From NCBI GenBank assembly GCA_025363655.1, contig JANYDK010000073.1, positions 1 through 64,000 of the forward strand: 64,000 nucleotides of DNA. The letters run 5' to 3'. The position numbers and the translations under genes are program-made. Positions 1,143 through 9,687 of this stretch are shown in pieces; within the stretch, counting starts at the first letter, position 1; every line of letters starts with the position of its first letter. Under the pieces are notes generated by a model that worked only from the letters and a program-made list of their open reading frames with translations, searched no databases and had not been told where the DNA came from. The stretch comes from Deltaproteobacteria bacterium (GTDB lineage: Bacteria > Myxococcota_A > Polyangia > Polyangiales > JADJMO01).

Positions 1143-1499
1143 TGGTGGAGGCGGGGGGAGTCGAACCCCCGTCCGAAAGCGTTCCACCTCGGCTTCTACG
1201 TGCGTAGTCGTTGTGTTGATTCGTGATGCGAGACGGCCAACGACAACCTTCTCGCTCCACTACTCCGCACTGCTTCTTGCTTCACCCCGCGCGGCGAGGG
1301 GGTCGGCCAGCCGAATCAGTTGCGCCTTCCGGAGAGCTTCGGCGGGCTCTTCCTTTAGACGGCTATCGCTAGTTTCTTAGGCTGCGAGAGCGTACGCGTT
1401 GTCGTTCGCGTTTGTACGTCCCACGGGTTGGAGAGGTCGTGGGCCCTCTTGCACGCCACCAGAGATGAACGACGCCCCCGTCGAAACCGGAGCGCCCCC
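1143..1499 (-). ncRNA. ssrA: tmRNA (transfer-messenger RNA)
   Basis: tmRNA rescues stalled ribosomes by acting as tRNA-Ala and then as template for a degradation tag. The 5' end GGGGGCG (1499-1493) pairs with CGCCTCC (1153-1147), with one G-U pair, followed by ACCA, so the CCA end is encoded (1145-1143). The hallmark 5' segment CGGTTTCGACGGGGG and the T-arm GGTTCGACTCCCCCC are present. The length is 357 nt in one piece, with no sign of the two-piece permuted form. The tag reading frame is listed separately. The 3' end is the probable attachment site of the adjacent island, which evidently restored the tRNA-like end on insertion. Confidence 0.95.
1377..1409 (-). other. tmRNA tag reading frame (ANDNAYALAA, TAA)
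   Basis: Inside the tmRNA, codons from GCG at 1409-1407 to TAA at 1379-1377 encode ANDNAYALAA. The ALAA end is the usual C-terminal degron for ClpXP-type proteases. Choice of GCG as the resume codon follows the family pattern A-N-D-N. It was not determined experimentally. Confidence 0.85.
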
Positions 1500-1721: not shown

Positions 1722-4700
1722 TCACTTCTTGAAGAAGCCGCGCAATCTGCCCTTTTTTTCGGGCTCTTTCTTCGCGGCGGAGCGCATCGCGGCGAGGCGG
1801 ACCTCGCGAACGGCGTCGACGTTCTTCGGGTCGAGATCGGCCGCGCGCTTGAAGTCGCGGAGGGCCTCGGCGGCGCGTCCCATGCGTTTGAAGATGGCGC
1901 CGCGGTAGTAGAGCGTCTTGTCGTTCTCGGGCTGTTTGCGCACCGCCTGCTCGAGGAGACGCATCGGTTCGAGCAGCTGCGCCGGATCGGGCGTCATCTG
2001 CGCGCGAATCCATCCGAGGATGGCATAGTGGTCGGCGGTGTCGGGATCGCCCTCCATCGCGCGGACGGCCAGTCGCTCGGCAGCCGGAAGATCGCCGCGT
2101 CGCATGAGGACCTCGGCTTTTTGGAAATCGGACGAGGCGTTGAGGACGCGCTCGACCTCCGAGGGTTGATCGGGCGGCGCGAACCGCTCCTCCTCGTAGG
2201 CAGCGCGGCGCGCGGGATCCATCAGCGTTCGATGCGCCTCGCTGATGCGGGCGAAGATGGCGGCCGCGAGCCCGTGCAAATCGGCGCACTCGGCGGGGAG
2301 TCGATCGGGATGGAACGTCTTCGCAGCGCGAAGAAACGCACCTTGAATGTCGGCTGACGAAGCGTTCCCGGGCACCACCAGCGCGCCGTAGTGATCGAGC
2401 TCCGGCAGCGAGCGGAAGCGCTCTTCGAGGATGGCGCGCATCGGATGGACCCGCACCGGCGCGGGCTCTTGCGCGTGATCGTGCTCGCCGAGATCGACGT
2501 CGATGACCAGCTCTTGGCTCATCGACGACGCCTTCATGGGCTCGCGAGCTTCGCGACCTTCGCGAGTCTCGCGAGGCGGAAGCGGCGGCGGTCCGCCCCC
2601 GAAGGCGCCCGGCGACGGCGTCGACACGAACGCGGCCACGGACTCCTCACGGAGCGTGGAAGCGGTTGGCGTCGGCGGCGCCTGTGGCATCGGAGGCTGC
2701 GGAATGAGCGAGGGGCGGAACTGACCGGCAGCGGCGGTGCGCACGGAGATGGGTCCCGTCGGCGTCGTCGACTCGGGCGGGAGCATGCTCGGCCGAACTC
2801 GCTGCGGCGGCGACGACGACCGATCGCCGGGACGCACGCCCGCGGGCTTGGCGTCGGGGAGACCGAGATCGATGTGGCGCGTGATCGCGAGGGCATAGAC
2901 GAGCGTACGCACCACCTGCGGTTCGACGATCTCGGCGTCGAGCATCGCGGGACAGGTGAGCTCGAACTCGCGACCGGCCTCGAGGAGCGCACGCTCGCCC
3001 TCGGTGAGCCCGAAGCGCGTCGGATCGCTCGCCGGATGGAGCACGATTTCTCGGTCGCCGAGGCGATCGAGCGTCGCGGTCATGCGCGCCTCGTCGGGCC
3101 ACCTGCGCACCACCGCGAGCAACGTCGCCAGCGGGTCCGCGGGCACGTAGGCGCCGTACGCGCCGTCGAGGAGATCGAGCGAGACGTAGAATTCGTAGCT
3201 CGACTCGTCAGGCACCGACGCGAGGACGGCGAGACGATCGACGAGCTGATCATGGAGCGAGGCGTCGAGCGAGGCGGCGTCGAGATCGAGGCCGTGAATC
3301 AGCTGTTCGCCGAGGAGGCTGCCGAGCGCGCGCGAACGCTCGATCGCCGCCGCGAGGGTCCGTTCGTCGACGAGGCCGCGGCGAAGGAGCACCTCTCCGA
3401 GCGGCGCCACGACCAGCCAGGCGTGCTCATCGGTCGACGCCGTCGAGCGCATGCGCGCCGGCGCACCATCGACGAAGAAAATGGCGTGCTCACTCCCGTT
3501 GGGCGGCCTCACGAGGAGCGTCCCCGTGAGGTTGCGCGTCAAGAGGTGCACCAGCAGGTGCGGCAGCGGCGAGGTCGCGAGCGTCCCCCGCACGTCGGGC
3601 TTGCGGGGCGGCCTTCCGAGACGCGGCGGGGCGTTCGGGGGTGCCACCGTCATCAGCGCGTTGCGCGGAGGTGCCGACGACCTTCGCGCCGACGATGCCG
3701 GGCTCGAGCGCGGCGCGCCCGCCATCGGTAGTGACCCAGGTGAGCTGCTCGGTGGCATCGGAGGAGTAGTGCGCTGCGTCGTCGGCGCTTCGAGATCGAA
3801 GAGCTTGGTCGGCTCGAGCTCGGCGTCGCCACGGACCGCGAAGGGTGACCGTTGCACCGTCGTCGCGTCGTCCGATTGGGGCGCGCTGGGCGGCATCGGA
3901 GGCGCGAGGGACGACGGTGCGACCGGCTCGGCGGCGGCGCTCCGACGACTCCCGAGCGGCGCGCGGGCCGACGGTGGTGCGGTGATCGGCGCAGCGACGC
4001 GCGTGTCGGGCTTGGACGACGGCGTGCGCATGTCTGGCGATTGTGGCACGGCCCGCGGTGATTGCGGAGACGGCGCAGACTGCGGCGGCTGCGAAGGCCG
4101 CGACGAGGGCACGGGCGTCGGCGTCGAGTCGGCGAGGGCGCTCTCGGGGGGCTCGTCCATGGGCATCGGTGACTCGTAGTCCCGGGCGGTGAAGGGTTCG
4201 GCGCTGATCGGCGCGGCGATCATCGGTGAAAGGTCGCGCTCTGGCTCGTACGAACGCACGGAGATGGGTATCGACGACGGGACTGACGACGGGACTGACG
4301 ACGGGACAGACGTTGGTGCGGACGGTGGTGACGAGTCGAGCTCGCGTCGCACGAAGGTCGGATCGGAGCCGACGACTTTGACGATGCGAAGTCCCGGATC
4401 GGCGACGGGATCGAGCACTCGTTCGAGCACCTGCTCGGGCATCGCGCCCATCTCGTCGAGGACCACGCGGAGGGTGGTGCGTGCCGTGTCGCCCACCGCC
4501 CCGGCAGTGACGACGACCGCGATTTCCCCGGTCGAAAGCTCGACGAGGGTGCCCGGCGGGAGGACGCCGAGCGCGCAGATCAAGAGGCGGAGGACGGTGC
4601 GATCGGCGTTGTCGCCGATGATCGCCTTGCCCGTCCCCGGCGCGGCAGAGATCTCGGCGTCGAGCTCGAGGAGCGCGTCGCTCGCCGTGCGCACCGGCTC

Positions 4701-5843
4701 ACCAGGGGAAGGGGTGAGGAGCTCGTTGTAGCGGCGAGCGAGCGCGACGATGCGTGCGTAGAGCGTCGGCGCGCGGAGCCCACGATAGACCGCGCCGAGC
4801 CGTCGACTGCGCGCCACCCAGAGCGCTTCGTAGGCGACGACGCTCCGCTCCATCGACGACGCATGGAGACGTCCGAGGGTGGTGAGCACTGCAGCGGTCC
4901 CGGCGGGTAGCGCGAGATCGGCCTCTTCTCCGAGGTGCGTCGGCAAGAGCGCCTCGTCACCGGGCGCGAGGTCGTCGGTGTCGAGGAGGAGACTGCGCGC
5001 GGCGCGTGGCCGTCCGACGTCGCTGAGCATCGCCGCCATCGCGATGCGCGTGAGGGCGTCGCGACGGTCGGTCACCAGCCGCGCCACCGCCACCGCGAGG
5101 ATCGCGGAATTGACTGCTTTTCCAGCCTCGTCGTGGTTCGCGTTGCGCACCGCGGTGACCCCGAGGAACGCCGGCGTGCGACCGGCGGAGAGATCGACGA
5201 GCGCCTGCGCGAGGTGCTTCAGTCGTCTCGGGAGCGCCGCGTCGCCATGTGAGAGCTGTGCATAGAAATGACGGAGCGAGACGACGGCGTTCGCGTACGT
5301 GCGGACGATGCGTTGCTCGGCCTCGAGCGGCTCCGGCTCGAAGGCCCGGGCGAGCGCACCCTCGTCGACGCGGCGCAAACGGATGCGTCCGGCGAGCTCT
5401 TTCGGGAGCTCGAGGCGCACACGTCCATCGCGCAGGGCCGGCACCAAGACCTGGACGAAGACGCGCAGATCGGCGACCTGGATGTCGCGCGCGAACGACG
5501 CCGAGGTGCCACCGCAGCGCTCGAAGAGGGCGGCGATTTCCTGCGCGGCGTCGTAGACGGTGCGCGAGGCACGGAGCGGAGCGCCGCCGACGAGGACGGC
5601 CCCGCGGACGAAGAGCACTTCGAAGGGACGCCCGGCGCGGTGCGCGAACTCGGAGAGATCGTGCGTCGTCGCTTCGAGCTGTCTTCGTACCGCCTCGTTG
5701 TCGAGCGCGTGCATCGCCGCGCCACGGAGCAACCGATAGATCGAGGAGACGACGCTGCCTCCGAGCTCGCGCGCCACCTCCTTGCGGGTGAGCAGCATGC
5801 GCGCGGGATCGACCGCCGGACGCGCCGGAGTCCCCGCGTTCAT
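1722..5843 (-). CDS. HD-GYP-like / PATAN / J-domain / TPR multidomain protein
   Basis: This 1373-residue cytoplasmic protein has an unusual domain chain. Residues ~200-450 resemble an HD-GYP domain (AMAAMLSDVGRPR, ARIVALARRYNELL, PGTLVELSTGEIAVVV), but the HD pair is replaced by SD, so c-di-GMP hydrolysis is unlikely. Residues ~490-745 are a Pro/Ser-rich linker with SVPSS repeats. Residues ~750-960 match the PATAN/DUF4388 fold common in myxobacterial signalling proteins. A J domain follows at ~1138-1229 with an intact HPD motif (FHPDR), then TPR repeats to a Lys-rich end. There is no signal peptide. Its ATG overlaps the stop of the upstream kinase gene (ATGA), so the two are translationally coupled and probably work together. 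Partner and output are unknown. Confidence 0.85.
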   Translation of the reverse strand: MNAGTPARPAVDPARMLLTRKEVARELGGSVVSSIYRLLRGAAMHALDNEAVRRQLEATTHDLSEFAHRAGRPFEVLFVRGAVLVGGAPLRASRTVYDAAQEIAALFERCGGTSASFARDIQVADLRVFVQVLVPALRDGRVRLELPKELAGRIRLRRVDEGALARAFEPEPLEAEQRIVRTYANAVVSLRHFYAQLSHGDAALPRRLKHLAQALVDLSAGRTPAFLGVTAVRNANHDEAGKAVNSAILAVAVARLVTDRRDALTRIAMAAMLSDVGRPRAARSLLLDTDDLAPGDEALLPTHLGEEADLALPAGTAAVLTTLGRLHASSMERSVVAYEALWVARSRRLGAVYRGLRAPTLYARIVALARRYNELLTPSPGEPVRTASDALLELDAEISAAPGTGKAIIGDNADRTVLRLLICALGVLPPGTLVELSTGEIAVVVTAGAVGDTARTTLRVVLDEMGAMPEQVLERVLDPVADPGLRIVKVVGSDPTFVRRELDSSPPSAPTSVPSSVPSSVPSSIPISVRSYEPERDLSPMIAAPISAEPFTARDYESPMPMDEPPESALADSTPTPVPSSRPSQPPQSAPSPQSPRAVPQSPDMRTPSSKPDTRVAAPITAPPSARAPLGSRRSAAAEPVAPSSLAPPMPPSAPQSDDATTVQRSPFAVRGDAELEPTKLFDLEAPTTQRTTPPMPPSSSPGSLPMAGAPRSSPASSARRSSAPPRNALMTVAPPNAPPRLGRPPRKPDVRGTLATSPLPHLLVHLLTRNLTGTLLVRPPNGSEHAIFFVDGAPARMRSTASTDEHAWLVVAPLGEVLLRRGLVDERTLAAAIERSRALGSLLGEQLIHGLDLDAASLDASLHDQLVDRLAVLASVPDESSYEFYVSLDLLDGAYGAYVPADPLATLLAVVRRWPDEARMTATLDRLGDREIVLHPASDPTRFGLTEGERALLEAGREFELTCPAMLDAEIVEPQVVRTLVYALAITRHIDLGLPDAKPAGVRPGDRSSSPPQRVRPSMLPPESTTPTGPISVRTAAAGQFRPSLIPQPPMPQAPPTPTASTLREESVAAFVSTPSPGAFGGGPPPLPPRETREGREAREPMKASSMSQELVIDVDLGEHDHAQEPAPVRVHPMRAILEERFRSLPELDHYGALVVPGNASSADIQGAFLRAAKTFHPDRLPAECADLHGLAAAIFARISEAHRTLMDPARRAAYEEERFAPPDQPSEVERVLNASSDFQKAEVLMRRGDLPAAERLAVRAMEGDPDTADHYAILGWIRAQMTPDPAQLLEPMRLLEQAVRKQPENDKTLYYRGAIFKRMGRAAEALRDFKRAADLDPKNVDAVREVRLAAMRSAAKKEPEKKGRLRGFFKK

Positions 5844-8671
5844 CGGCCGCCGCTCTCGATGCGGGCGCGGATCGCCGCCGTCGCCGCCACGGCTGCGTCA
5901 CGGAGCTCGCCAGCGCTGCGGAACCATCCCTTGCCCGCACCACCGAGCGCATCGAGCGCCTCTTTGCTGCGTGCATGTGCGCCCAACACCTGCGCAGCGA
6001 TGACGCGAGAGCCATCGCGAGCTTCGCTTCGGAGCATCGCCCGTTGCCCGAGAATTTCGATCGCCAAGGCCTCGCCGCGCGTGGGGTTCACCGCCATCGT
6101 CGCCTCGAAGAGCGCACGTCGCTCGTCGAGCGCGAGGCCGTGGAACGACGCGTCCTCGATGCGGCGGACGACGACCTGGCCGAGCTCGCGGACCTTGCGT
6201 TCGCCGACCATGCGCAGCGCGGAGAGACGTACGTCGAGACGCGCGTGATCGAGGAGCGCCGAGAGCTCCTGCTTCAGTTGATCGGTGCCGACGGCGCGCT
6301 CGGCGATGGCGTCGAGACGCAGCGCCAAATCGCCCTGCGCGGCGACGTCGGCGAGGGCATTGACCGCGTCTGCCGTTTGCTTGCGCCCGAGGATGGCGAG
6401 CAGCTCGCGCGCGATGTCCTGCGGCCGCTTGCTCAAGTGCTCGGCGATGAAGCGCTCGTGACCCTCGGCGAGCCGCTCGATCGCCTGGAGAATCGGCTGA
6501 CGCAGGCCTTCGTCGGGTTGGTCGAGCGCCTCGAGCAAGTTCGGCAGACTGCGCTCTCCGAGCCACTCCATCATCGACGAGGTCTGCGCGAGGAGCGCCG
6601 GCCGCGCTTCTTCGGGCGCGCGCACGACCACGCCGAGGAGCCGCGCGAGGTTGTCGCCGCCGAAGAACGCGTCGGTGAGCTGCGCGCGCAGCGGGGCGAG
6701 ATCACCGGCCGGCGCGCGCGTCGTCAGCACCTCGACGAGCGCGTGCCACATCGCCATCATCGCGTCGGCCAGGCCGTGGGTGAACGTCTCCTGCGAGCCG
6801 CTCGCCAGCGAGCCGAGGAGCAGGGGAAGATCGCCGGCGCGGCGTGCGTCGAGGATCGCCTCCGCGAGGACGTCGACGTAGCGCTCGAGCCACCTCGCCG
6901 TCGGCATCGAGAGCTGCGCGCCGAGCGCGAGCCGGGCCATGCGATCGATGCCGAGGGCGTCGGCGAGCGGGTTCTGTCCGCGCGCATCGCCGTCGGTGGT
7001 GATCGCCATCGCGCTCGCCTCGGCGCGCGCCGAGCGAGCTTCACGTGCCGCGAGCCGTTCGAGCTCGTCCGACTCGGCAAAAAAAGCCTCGAAACGATCG
7101 GCGTCGCCATCGGCGAACCCGAGCGTGGCGATGGCCTCGATGTGCGGAAGGCCGAGATCCCAGAGGCGGGTGGCGAGGTCGTCCTCGGGCGGAAGATCTC
7201 GCGCGGTGTCGACGAGGAAGAGCTCGACCAGCGCGCGCAGCTCCGGCTCGGTGACGCCAGGATGGATCAAGAGCTCCCGTACGCCGCTCTCGAAGAAGGC
7301 GTAGGGCACGACGTCGAAGGGCGCGGCCGGCTCCCACACGTCACGCACGCCCGCGGGCGTCGAGAGAGCGAACGCATACGGGCGCACCGAAAACACGATG
7401 CCCTCGCGCAACGCAGGCTCGGCGAGCGCGGTGAGGACTTCTTCGAAGAGCGCTCGTTGTCGACGCTCGGTCTCCGGGTGGCCGAACGCATATTGACGCA
7501 CGCTCGGGAGAACGCGCTCGAAGGCCTTGCCGACGGCGCGAAGGCGCGCGAGCCGCGGGTCTTCCTCGACGGCGCCCGTGGCTGCCGAGATCGGAGAGAC
7601 GCCGGAGACCGCCGACACGGCAGAGACCGCGGAGACCGCAGAAACCGCCGAGACCACCGACGTCTCCGTCGGACGCGGCTGCGAGCGCGAGAGCTCGACC
7701 GTCGCCGGCGTCGGCGTGCCCCGCAGACGCGAGAGCTCGGTGAGCACCGCGCCGCGCATTTCAGCCGCATTTTCCCAGCGATTTCGCCTGTCCCATTGCA
7801 GGGCCTTGTCGACCAGCGCGATGAAGCCGGTGGGCAAGTCGGGATCGGCGCGGGCGAGCGATGGCGCGGGCTGCGTCGCCGCGAGGACGAGCGCTTCGTC
7901 GTTGCTCCGACCTTGGTGAAGCCGCGTCCCGGTGGTCAGCGCATAGAGGAGCGCACCGACCGAGAAGATGTCGGCACGACCATCGAGGCGATCGCCGAGA
8001 CCGCGCGCCTGTTCGGGCGACATGTACGAAGGCGTGCCGAGCGTGGTGCCGGCGCGCGTCTGATCCATCGGCGCGGCGTCGCGGAGCTGCGCGATGCCGT
8101 AGTCGAGGACCTTCACCCGCCCGTTGCGCCGCACCTCGTCGCCGGCGTTCGGTTCCGGATCGCAGAGGAAGATGTTGGCGGGCTTGAGGTCTCGATGGAT
8201 GACCCCCGCGCCGTGACACGCGGCGAGGAAATCGAGGAGCTGTCCGGCGATCGCCAGTGAATCGAGGAGCGGTAATTTCCGTCCTTCGCGCTTCCAGCGG
8301 TGATCGAGCGTCTCGCCGATGAGCAGCTCCATCACGAGGAAGGGCTCGCCCTCGTCGGTGGTGTCGTTGTCGTGCACCTCGACGCCGCCGGGGTGCTGGA
8401 TCTTGTTGCCGACGTACCCTTCGCGGACGAAGCGCTCGCGCAGGCTCGGATCGACCGAGAGCTCGGGATGGAGGATCTTCAGCGCCGCGCGCCGACCGTT
8501 GTGGTGCGTCGCCGCGTAGACCGCCGCCATGCCTCCGACGCCGACGAGCTCGTCGAGTCGCCACTTGCCGCGCACCAACGCGCCCACGCGCGACTCCGCC
8601 GTTCGTGCGGGTCCTTGCCCATCGCGGGCGCGCGGATCTTGAGGAGGGCTCACCGGGCTCGAGCGCTGCAT
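5840..8671 (-). CDS. Serine/threonine protein kinase with long helical-repeat tail
   Basis: Residues ~34-300 form a Hanks-type kinase: Gly loop GVGGMAAVY, catalytic-pair Lys in AALKILHPEL, HRDLKPANI catalytic loop, a DYG in place of DFG (VLDYGIA), and GTPSYMSPEQ. All key residues are present, so it is probably active. A VSA micro-repeat linker follows. The last ~550 residues are Leu/Ala/Arg-rich helices resembling HEAT or ARM repeats (for example LARLLGVVVRAPEEARPALLAQ), likely a protein-binding scaffold. No membrane segment is seen, so it should be cytosolic. It is the first gene of a two-gene unit with the HD-GYP-like/J-domain gene, which it overlaps by 4 bp, so that protein is a plausible substrate or partner. 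Confidence 0.9.
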   Translation of the reverse strand: MQRSSPVSPPQDPRARDGQGPARTAESRVGALVRGKWRLDELVGVGGMAAVYAATHHNGRRAALKILHPELSVDPSLRERFVREGYVGNKIQHPGGVEVHDNDTTDEGEPFLVMELLIGETLDHRWKREGRKLPLLDSLAIAGQLLDFLAACHGAGVIHRDLKPANIFLCDPEPNAGDEVRRNGRVKVLDYGIAQLRDAAPMDQTRAGTTLGTPSYMSPEQARGLGDRLDGRADIFSVGALLYALTTGTRLHQGRSNDEALVLAATQPAPSLARADPDLPTGFIALVDKALQWDRRNRWENAAEMRGAVLTELSRLRGTPTPATVELSRSQPRPTETSVVSAVSAVSAVSAVSAVSGVSPISAATGAVEEDPRLARLRAVGKAFERVLPSVRQYAFGHPETERRQRALFEEVLTALAEPALREGIVFSVRPYAFALSTPAGVRDVWEPAAPFDVVPYAFFESGVRELLIHPGVTEPELRALVELFLVDTARDLPPEDDLATRLWDLGLPHIEAIATLGFADGDADRFEAFFAESDELERLAAREARSARAEASAMAITTDGDARGQNPLADALGIDRMARLALGAQLSMPTARWLERYVDVLAEAILDARRAGDLPLLLGSLASGSQETFTHGLADAMMAMWHALVEVLTTRAPAGDLAPLRAQLTDAFFGGDNLARLLGVVVRAPEEARPALLAQTSSMMEWLGERSLPNLLEALDQPDEGLRQPILQAIERLAEGHERFIAEHLSKRPQDIARELLAILGRKQTADAVNALADVAAQGDLALRLDAIAERAVGTDQLKQELSALLDHARLDVRLSALRMVGERKVRELGQVVVRRIEDASFHGLALDERRALFEATMAVNPTRGEALAIEILGQRAMLRSEARDGSRVIAAQVLGAHARSKEALDALGGAGKGWFRSAGELRDAAVAATAAIRARIESGGR
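7605..7658. repeat. 9-bp tandem repeat encoding VSA units in the kinase linker
   Basis: Six near-identical 9-bp units (plus-strand consensus GAGACCGCC) run head to tail and encode Val-Ser-Ala repeats just after the kinase domain. Such a run can change copy number by slippage in whole codons, which would alter linker length without a frameshift. Confidence 0.75.
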
Positions 8672-8865: not shown

Positions 8866-9366
8866 CTACCAGGCCTTCTCTTTGACGAACTCGGCGGTGA
8901 ACTTCGCAGCCGCCTCGTAGCTCTTCTTGGTGTCGGCCTCGATGCGCTTCTCGACGATGCCACCGACCATGAAGACCTTCACCTCGACGCTCATCTTGGC
9001 GATGCGCACGCAGGCCGCATCTCCACGACTCTCGCACCAGTTCTCACCGCCGATGTGGGTCTTGTCGGGCATCGAGGCGGTGATGATCTTCACTTTGTAG
9101 ATCCCCGTCTTCTTGTCGAAGACGCCGTCCTCGATCCACGAGAGGTCGCCGAGCACCTTGGCGACGGGGCCGGGGAGGTCCTGCGCAGGAGGGTTGAGCT
9201 TGATCCGCCGCGTGATCTGCGCGTCCGTCTCTTTCTGCTCGAGCCGCGTGCACTCGCGGAACTTGAGGACGTCGAGATAGAGGCGCTTGTTGTACTCCTC
9301 GTCCCAGACGCACCGCCAATAGGTGTCGATGGCGCAAGGGATGTCGTGGCGGATGGTGAACTCCAT
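8866..9366 (-). CDS. DUF2505 family protein
   Basis: This is a 166-residue protein counted from ATG at 9366 (MEFTIRHDIPCAIDTYW). DUF2505 proteins have a START/SRPBCC-like fold. The biochemical role is not known, but a small hydrophobic ligand is expected. The N-terminal motif and the middle segment (RRIKLNPPAQDLPGPVAKVL) fit the family. The frame is open further upstream to an ATG at 9456, but those 30 extra residues look like leader sequence and do not match the family, so I chose the internal start. No signal peptide is seen. It lies between the divergent outer-membrane protein gene and the kinase operon. Confidence 0.75.
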   Translation of the reverse strand: MEFTIRHDIPCAIDTYWRCVWDEEYNKRLYLDVLKFRECTRLEQKETDAQITRRIKLNPPAQDLPGPVAKVLGDLSWIEDGVFDKKTGIYKVKIITASMPDKTHIGGENWCESRGDAACVRIAKMSVEVKVFMVGGIVEKRIEADTKKSYEAAAKFTAEFVKEKAW

Positions 9367-9687
9367 GCGCGGGACCGTATGTGGCCTTGGCGAACCCGAC
9401 AAGCCGACTTCCGACGGCGTCTCGCGCGTGACTCCGGAGGGCGACATACCGTGCACAGGGCCGCGAACGGGCGGTCACACCCGCCGTTTGGACAGGGCGA
9501 CGGCCCTTTCGGTGAGAATCGACAGGCGCCCGGAATCACCGGGCTTCTGGCCCGGTTGTGCCCCTGTACACGGCATCTGGGGCCGACGTGTCTTCTCCCT
9601 GGACGCATCCGCTCTTCGGCATCAGGATTGCTCTACAGACCTTCGACCGCCTCCGTTCGACCTTCGTCACGCCTTCAGGAGCCCCAG

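Follow-up and report, generated by a model that had tools for sequence, protein, structure and literature searches.

Does a Ser/Thr kinase gene that overlaps the gene of a composite J-domain protein form one signalling unit with it, and what would such a unit act on? The question arises from the minus strand of the window (the whole stretch of DNA analysed, 64,000 nucleotides), where an earlier note had described an overlapping pair joining a kinase to an HD-GYP-like/PATAN/J-domain/TPR fusion. Both open reading frames, called here K and J, were found where that note had placed them. The stop of K and the start of J overlap by 4 nt (5840-5843) in a minus-strand ATGA, and an ATGA overlap is the usual sign of translational coupling. 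The features of the pair are as follows.

5840..8671, minus strand: K, Ser/Thr kinase with HEAT-repeat tail, 943 aa (ORF, profiles, structure model)
7772..8557, minus strand: K protein kinase domain, residues 39-300 (Pkinase profile; Lys, HRD and D(Y)G motifs intact)
7127..7558, minus strand: K alpha/beta domain, residues about 372-515, apparently common to J (hhalign against J; model)
5843..6949, minus strand: K HEAT repeats, residues about 575-943 (model, Foldseek and VIA)
1722..5843, minus strand: J, pseudo-HD-GYP/PATAN/J/TPR protein, 1373 aa (ORF, profiles)
5340..5807, minus strand: J alpha/beta domain, residues 13-168, apparently common to K (hhalign, model)
4563..5339, minus strand: J HD-GYP fold, residues 169-427 (PDB profile, model; SD replaces HD at 274-275)
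3597..4364, minus strand: J Pro/Ser/Thr-rich linker, residues 494-749 (composition: 60 P, 44 S and 16 T of 256)
3840..3872, minus strand: acidic-Thr-hydrophobic island DDATTVQRSPF, J residues 658-668, candidate phosphoacceptor (linker pattern)
2844..3596, minus strand: PATAN/DUF4388, then an MshE-like helical repeat and a further conserved stretch, J residues 750-1000 (profiles, alignment)
2193..2396, minus strand: J domain, J residues 1150-1217, with HPD at 1178-1180 (DnaJ profile)
1767..2132, minus strand: TPR tail, J residues about 1237-1359 (TPR profiles)

An all-against-all comparison of the ORFs of 36 loci recognised no larger conserved operon around the pair. Five large ORF clusters fall within K and J or on the strand opposite to them, as judged from the example members inspected, and the remaining clusters of neighbouring ORFs span at most 6 of the 36 loci, most of them being confined to Sorangium or to one other group. 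Upstream of K lies a DUF2505 gene (8866-9456), for which no counterpart was found outside the window. Just downstream of J, ARAGORN placed a tmRNA gene (1143-1499, minus strand, tag ANDNAYALAA); the ORF at 363-1226, which overlaps it, is probably not a gene.

The pair is conserved and its members evolve together

We searched for both proteins in related genomes. Of 38 relatives, 15 contained the N-terminal half of J and 16 contained K. At the level of the order, 96 out of 183 genomes had a match to the J profile and 128 a match to the profile of the K tail. When the best 109 J-type matches listed were examined, 101 immediately followed a K match in the same orientation, with a median of 51 nt between the aligned ends, while several of the other 8 lay at contig ends. 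Such a frequency of adjacency indicates that the pairing is not due to chance, and the recurrence of the domain architecture in many genomes rules out an accident of one assembly. The full architecture was found in Sorangium cellulosum So ceGT47, So ce26 and So0157-2, and several families of the order contain the pair. A wider sample of 377 genomes from the phylum was scanned for the N-terminal half of J alone, which matched in 176, many of these matches being weak. The earlier note had taken separation of the two genes, or failure of profile searches to find the HD-GYP-like and J domains, as what would speak against it; the pair is conserved together, and both the HD-GYP fold and the J domain were confirmed, as described below.

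The pairwise distances of K and of J, compared over 74 pairs, were correlated with r 0.933. We then exchanged partners within genomes for 27 rows, coming from 12 genomes that carry two to four pairs each. These swaps gave a mean r of 0.28 and none out of 5000 reached the observed value, indicating that paralogous K-J pairs evolve as units, even though tight linkage alone could yield matched paralogous pairs without any contact between the proteins. A natural single chain of 1660 aa, carrying kinase, HEAT, HD-like, PATAN and TPR parts, is encoded at locus L060 (7572-12551, plus strand). This fusion, together with the related alpha/beta domains described below, fits a physical partnership of K and J.

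K looks like an active kinase and apparently has a domain in common with J

The Pkinase profile matched K with an E-value of 7.6e-31. Among 68 aligned kinases, that of the window included, the catalytic Lys is present in 67 and both the HRD motif and the Asp of DFG in all, the window K having DYG at the DFG position. By its sequence, K looks like an intact and active Hanks-type kinase in which the catalytic residues are kept. The full catalytic motifs are shared with the kinases of the PknB group, and NCBIfam PknB_PASTA_kin matched K residues 30-346 with an E-value of 4.7e-59; however, the score was 200.9 against a cut-off of 450, the match covered profile positions 2-297 of 563 only, and K departs from the PknB group in that the kinase domain is followed by an alpha/beta domain, from which it is separated by a linker, and then by HEAT repeats. 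The predicted model of this tail (mean pLDDT 84.2) matched armadillo/HEAT structures with both Foldseek and VIA. The HEAT tail and the alpha/beta domain are additions to the domains listed in the earlier note.

The alpha/beta domain of K was compared with that of J by hhalign. With the larger alignments (A4 against A5) a single comparison gave Prob 63.6 and an E-value of 6.7e-5, whereas with the smaller first alignments the likeness was not seen (Prob 1.1). The order of helices and strands is the same in both predicted models, whose VIA rows cover mainly the HD-GYP and HEAT parts and barely test the alpha/beta domain. The presence of an apparently related domain in both proteins suggests how K and J may dock.

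The HD-GYP part of J is probably a pseudoenzyme

Pfam HD_5 scored J at 15.6 bits only, well below its cut-off of 27.2. However, a profile built from 13 relatives and compared with PDB sequences matched V-cGAP3 (5z7c) with an E-value of 6.3e-7, and the predicted model of J (mean pLDDT 84.2) had as its best solved match the HD-GYP protein Bd1817 (VIA Z 21.8, rmsd 3.1, 217 residues aligned), followed by other HD-GYP structures. With Foldseek, the best E-value for the same model was only 3.6e-3. The profile and the VIA match bear out the HD-GYP-like domain that had been proposed. A short beta cap follows the fold and precedes the Pro/Ser/Thr-rich linker.

J residues about 169-427 thus have the fold of the HD-GYP phosphodiesterases (V-cGAP3 5z7c, Bd1817 3tm8, 4mcw), whereas unlike these enzymes J is without the metal ligands, has no GYP motif and is associated with a fixed kinase partner. 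We scored the positions which we take to be the metal-binding His and Asp in all kinase-linked rows, that is, all rows except L062-L067 and L069, a few of them lacking part of the kinase gene at a contig end. The His expected as first ligand was replaced in 72 out of 72 rows (by Arg in 61). The HD doublet was kept in 25 of the 72 rows and the Asp alone in 68, the window J having SD there. As the HD doublet persists in those 25 rows, loss of activity was judged from the other ligands. Relatives L063 and L069, which have no kinase, keep both the first His and HD, but loss of HD is not confined to kinase-linked rows, since the kinase-free L064-L067 have lost it too. The replacement of the first His throughout the kinase-linked rows argues that the HD-GYP part of J is probably a pseudoenzyme, for which hydrolysis of a cyclic dinucleotide would be unlikely. 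With its metal ligands lost, the domain that the earlier note had called degenerate and c-di-GMP-type looks catalytically dead. L063 and L069 combine HEAT and HD-GYP-like parts without kinase, in L069 as a single chain.

Within the Pro/Ser/Thr-rich linker that follows, we noticed the DDATTVQRSPF island. A first regular expression matched 7 of 48 linkers; a second one, fixed before new loci were added, matched 27 of the 48 old linkers and 4 of 11 held-out linkers, which was not significant (66 of 1000 shuffles did as well), the held-out test being mostly on other clades. Within the clade of the window the pattern occurred in 24 of 28 linkers, these rows being related by descent and the pattern having been picked after looking. 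The island is thus a candidate phosphosite and a feature of this clade only. A second linker lies between the PATAN/MshE-like part and the J domain.

The C-terminal tail is variable

DUF4388/PATAN scored 24.0 bits in the window J, just below the Pfam gathering cut-off of 25, and 34.5 bits in the L060 fusion, which aligns with the window J over this domain. It is followed by an MshE-like motif (NF053729), which had not been listed before and scored 24.1 bits against a cut-off of 38. The DnaJ profile matched with an E-value of 1.8e-10 and 41.2 bits (cut-off 27.8), so that by its sequence J qualifies as a J-domain protein of class C type, and the intact HPD that had been reported is indeed present, starting at residue 1178. 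TPR_2 (28.6 bits, cut-off 27) and TPR_14 (28.4 bits, cut-off 23.5) matched the C-terminal end.

We surveyed the tails of 79 HD-like rows, 15 of which are cut by contig ends, leaving 64 complete proteins. The PATAN, J and TPR domains occurred together in 15 of them (including L167, assigned by hand as its frames are split in the HMM table). PATAN and TPR without a J domain were found in 13, PATAN only in 9, another tail in 4 and nothing past the HD-like part in 23. The conserved core is therefore kinase-HEAT plus pseudo-HD-GYP, PATAN, J and TPR being a C-terminal module present in part of the family. On a quick unrooted tree the J-bearing rows fell into three groups, the fewest changes of J-domain state being 3, and a group of 24 rows (several of them cut) had no J domain but retained PATAN and often TPR. 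L153 and L159 encode HD-like proteins with two tandem PATAN domains.

The genome of the window also encodes a stand-alone protein (L295:8760-10487, contig C6) with PATAN, MshE-like, J and TPR parts. Its domain order is that of J residues 750-1373, C-terminal basic tail included, whereas it has no HD-GYP-like half and no adjoining K-type gene among the ORFs listed. The existence of such a separate gene indicates that the window J is probably a fusion, in which a protein of this kind was joined to the pseudo-HD-GYP partner of the kinase. The stand-alone gene sits between ORFs resembling nadC and glnE, and upstream of it, by eye, an ORF resembles the end of a degenerate kinase with a membrane segment.

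The earlier note had read the pair as a phosphorylation-controlled co-chaperone or signalling hub. The J domain with its HPD stands in the window, but it is missing from 49 of the 64 complete relatives, some of which retain PATAN and TPR, and is not part of the core; "co-chaperone" thus fits the J-bearing lineages only.

Alternative outputs

These counts raise the possibility that the J domain is a dispensable add-on of minor importance, serving only the folding or turnover of J itself. PATAN and TPR would then provide the real output by controlling a surface machine, for instance type IV pili. The 49 relatives without a J domain, 13 of which keep TPR, are in favour of this reading, as is the literature, in the parts available to us: PATAN appears there in connection with cyanobacterial pilus control, and two M. 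xanthus PATAN proteins co-occur in STRING with the pilus regulator SgmX (PMC11580455). However, all 15 J domains of J-type proteins have an intact HPD motif, as have those of five further J-bearing proteins from later loci, and its retention in all 20 argues for a DnaK contact that is used. Moreover, no conserved neighbour family pointing to pili was seen among the 36 loci, in which neighbours were compared, not all being identified. We regard the add-on reading as unlikely, although it is the most serious of the alternatives. A 16th J domain listed, in another gene of L065, has HTD instead of HPD.

It is less likely still that the HD-GYP-like domain is a c-di-GMP receptor which, together with the MshE-like motif, would turn the pair into a kinase gated by c-di-GMP. 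In favour of this are the HD-GYP fold, the MshE-related match, the Gln of the second MshE motif, present in 48 of 48 rows, and the first His and HD kept in the kinase-free L063 and L069. However, the first His is lost in every kinase-linked row and NF053729 stays below its cut-off. We assume that the MshE-type receptor motif consists of two RLG...Q stretches whose Arg takes part in binding. By this measure the window J has PLG in the first and LLG in the second, and the Arg is found in 6 of 48 rows at the first motif and 1 of 48 at the second.

A role in anti-phage defence, as a kinase module, is very improbable. K does match PADLOC kinase models (PD-T4-6, for instance, with an E-value of 2.6e-78), but the listed matches hardly extend beyond the kinase domain and its near flank and are of a kind expected for many Hanks kinases, so that we discarded them as generic. 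J has no PADLOC hit, and the pair is spread over several families.

A proposed phospho-signalling unit with an exchangeable output

The reading that we favour, with a probability of about 0.45, is that K and J form one phospho-signalling unit. The two proteins would bind each other via their related alpha/beta domains and the HEAT arch, and in the resulting complex the dead HD-GYP fold would serve as a scaffold or allosteric reader rather than an enzyme. J would be phosphorylated by K, its disordered linkers rich in Ser and Thr being the most likely place, and this would alter the action of the tail, PATAN and TPR choosing the target protein. In J-bearing lineages the J domain would pass this target to DnaK, while in lineages without it the same switch would have a different output. 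The genome of the window has six strong HSP70 loci, two of which are split into two matches, as possible DnaK partners. Divergent J-domain frames occur within a few kb of HSP70 genes on its contigs C55, C143 and C58. A more specific version, in which the kinase, via its noncatalytic pseudo-HD-GYP partner, times the handover of PATAN/TPR-bound clients to Hsp70, as an exchangeable-tail switch used across the order, is speculative and we consider it rather doubtful.

Second-messenger-type domains have been tied to the Hsp70 system in myxobacteria before. In M. xanthus, CsdK1 and CsdK2 are PilZ-DnaK chaperones (PMC10313047), PilZ is also found joined to a DnaK domain or a DnaJ domain (PMC8316039) and 15 J-domain proteins are predicted (PMC11019930). 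The PilZ proteins resemble J in that respect but carry PilZ rather than HD-GYP, and the portions of these sources available to us mention no kinase pair. A link of our locus to the PilZ-DnaK proteins was considered and rejected, as a Pfam scan that covered 4 of the 6 strong HSP70 loci found PilZ in none of these 4. All the individual parts (HD-GYP fold, Hanks kinase, PATAN, J and TPR) belong to known families; their pairing as in K and J was not found described in the open-licence PMC literature, as far as its texts were accessible.

Myxobacteria have very many Ser/Thr kinases, and to our knowledge few of them have known dedicated partners. For K, a single partner is indicated by the order of the genes, by the matched paralogous pairs and by the fused chain that occurs in nature, so that a joint test of kinase, substrate and output would be within reach. 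Provided that its J domain is functional, the pair would connect a bacterial Hanks kinase directly with the DnaK system. The kinase-linked members, whose HD-GYP part has lost catalytic residues, would in addition clearly exemplify how an enzyme fold can become a scaffold for signalling.
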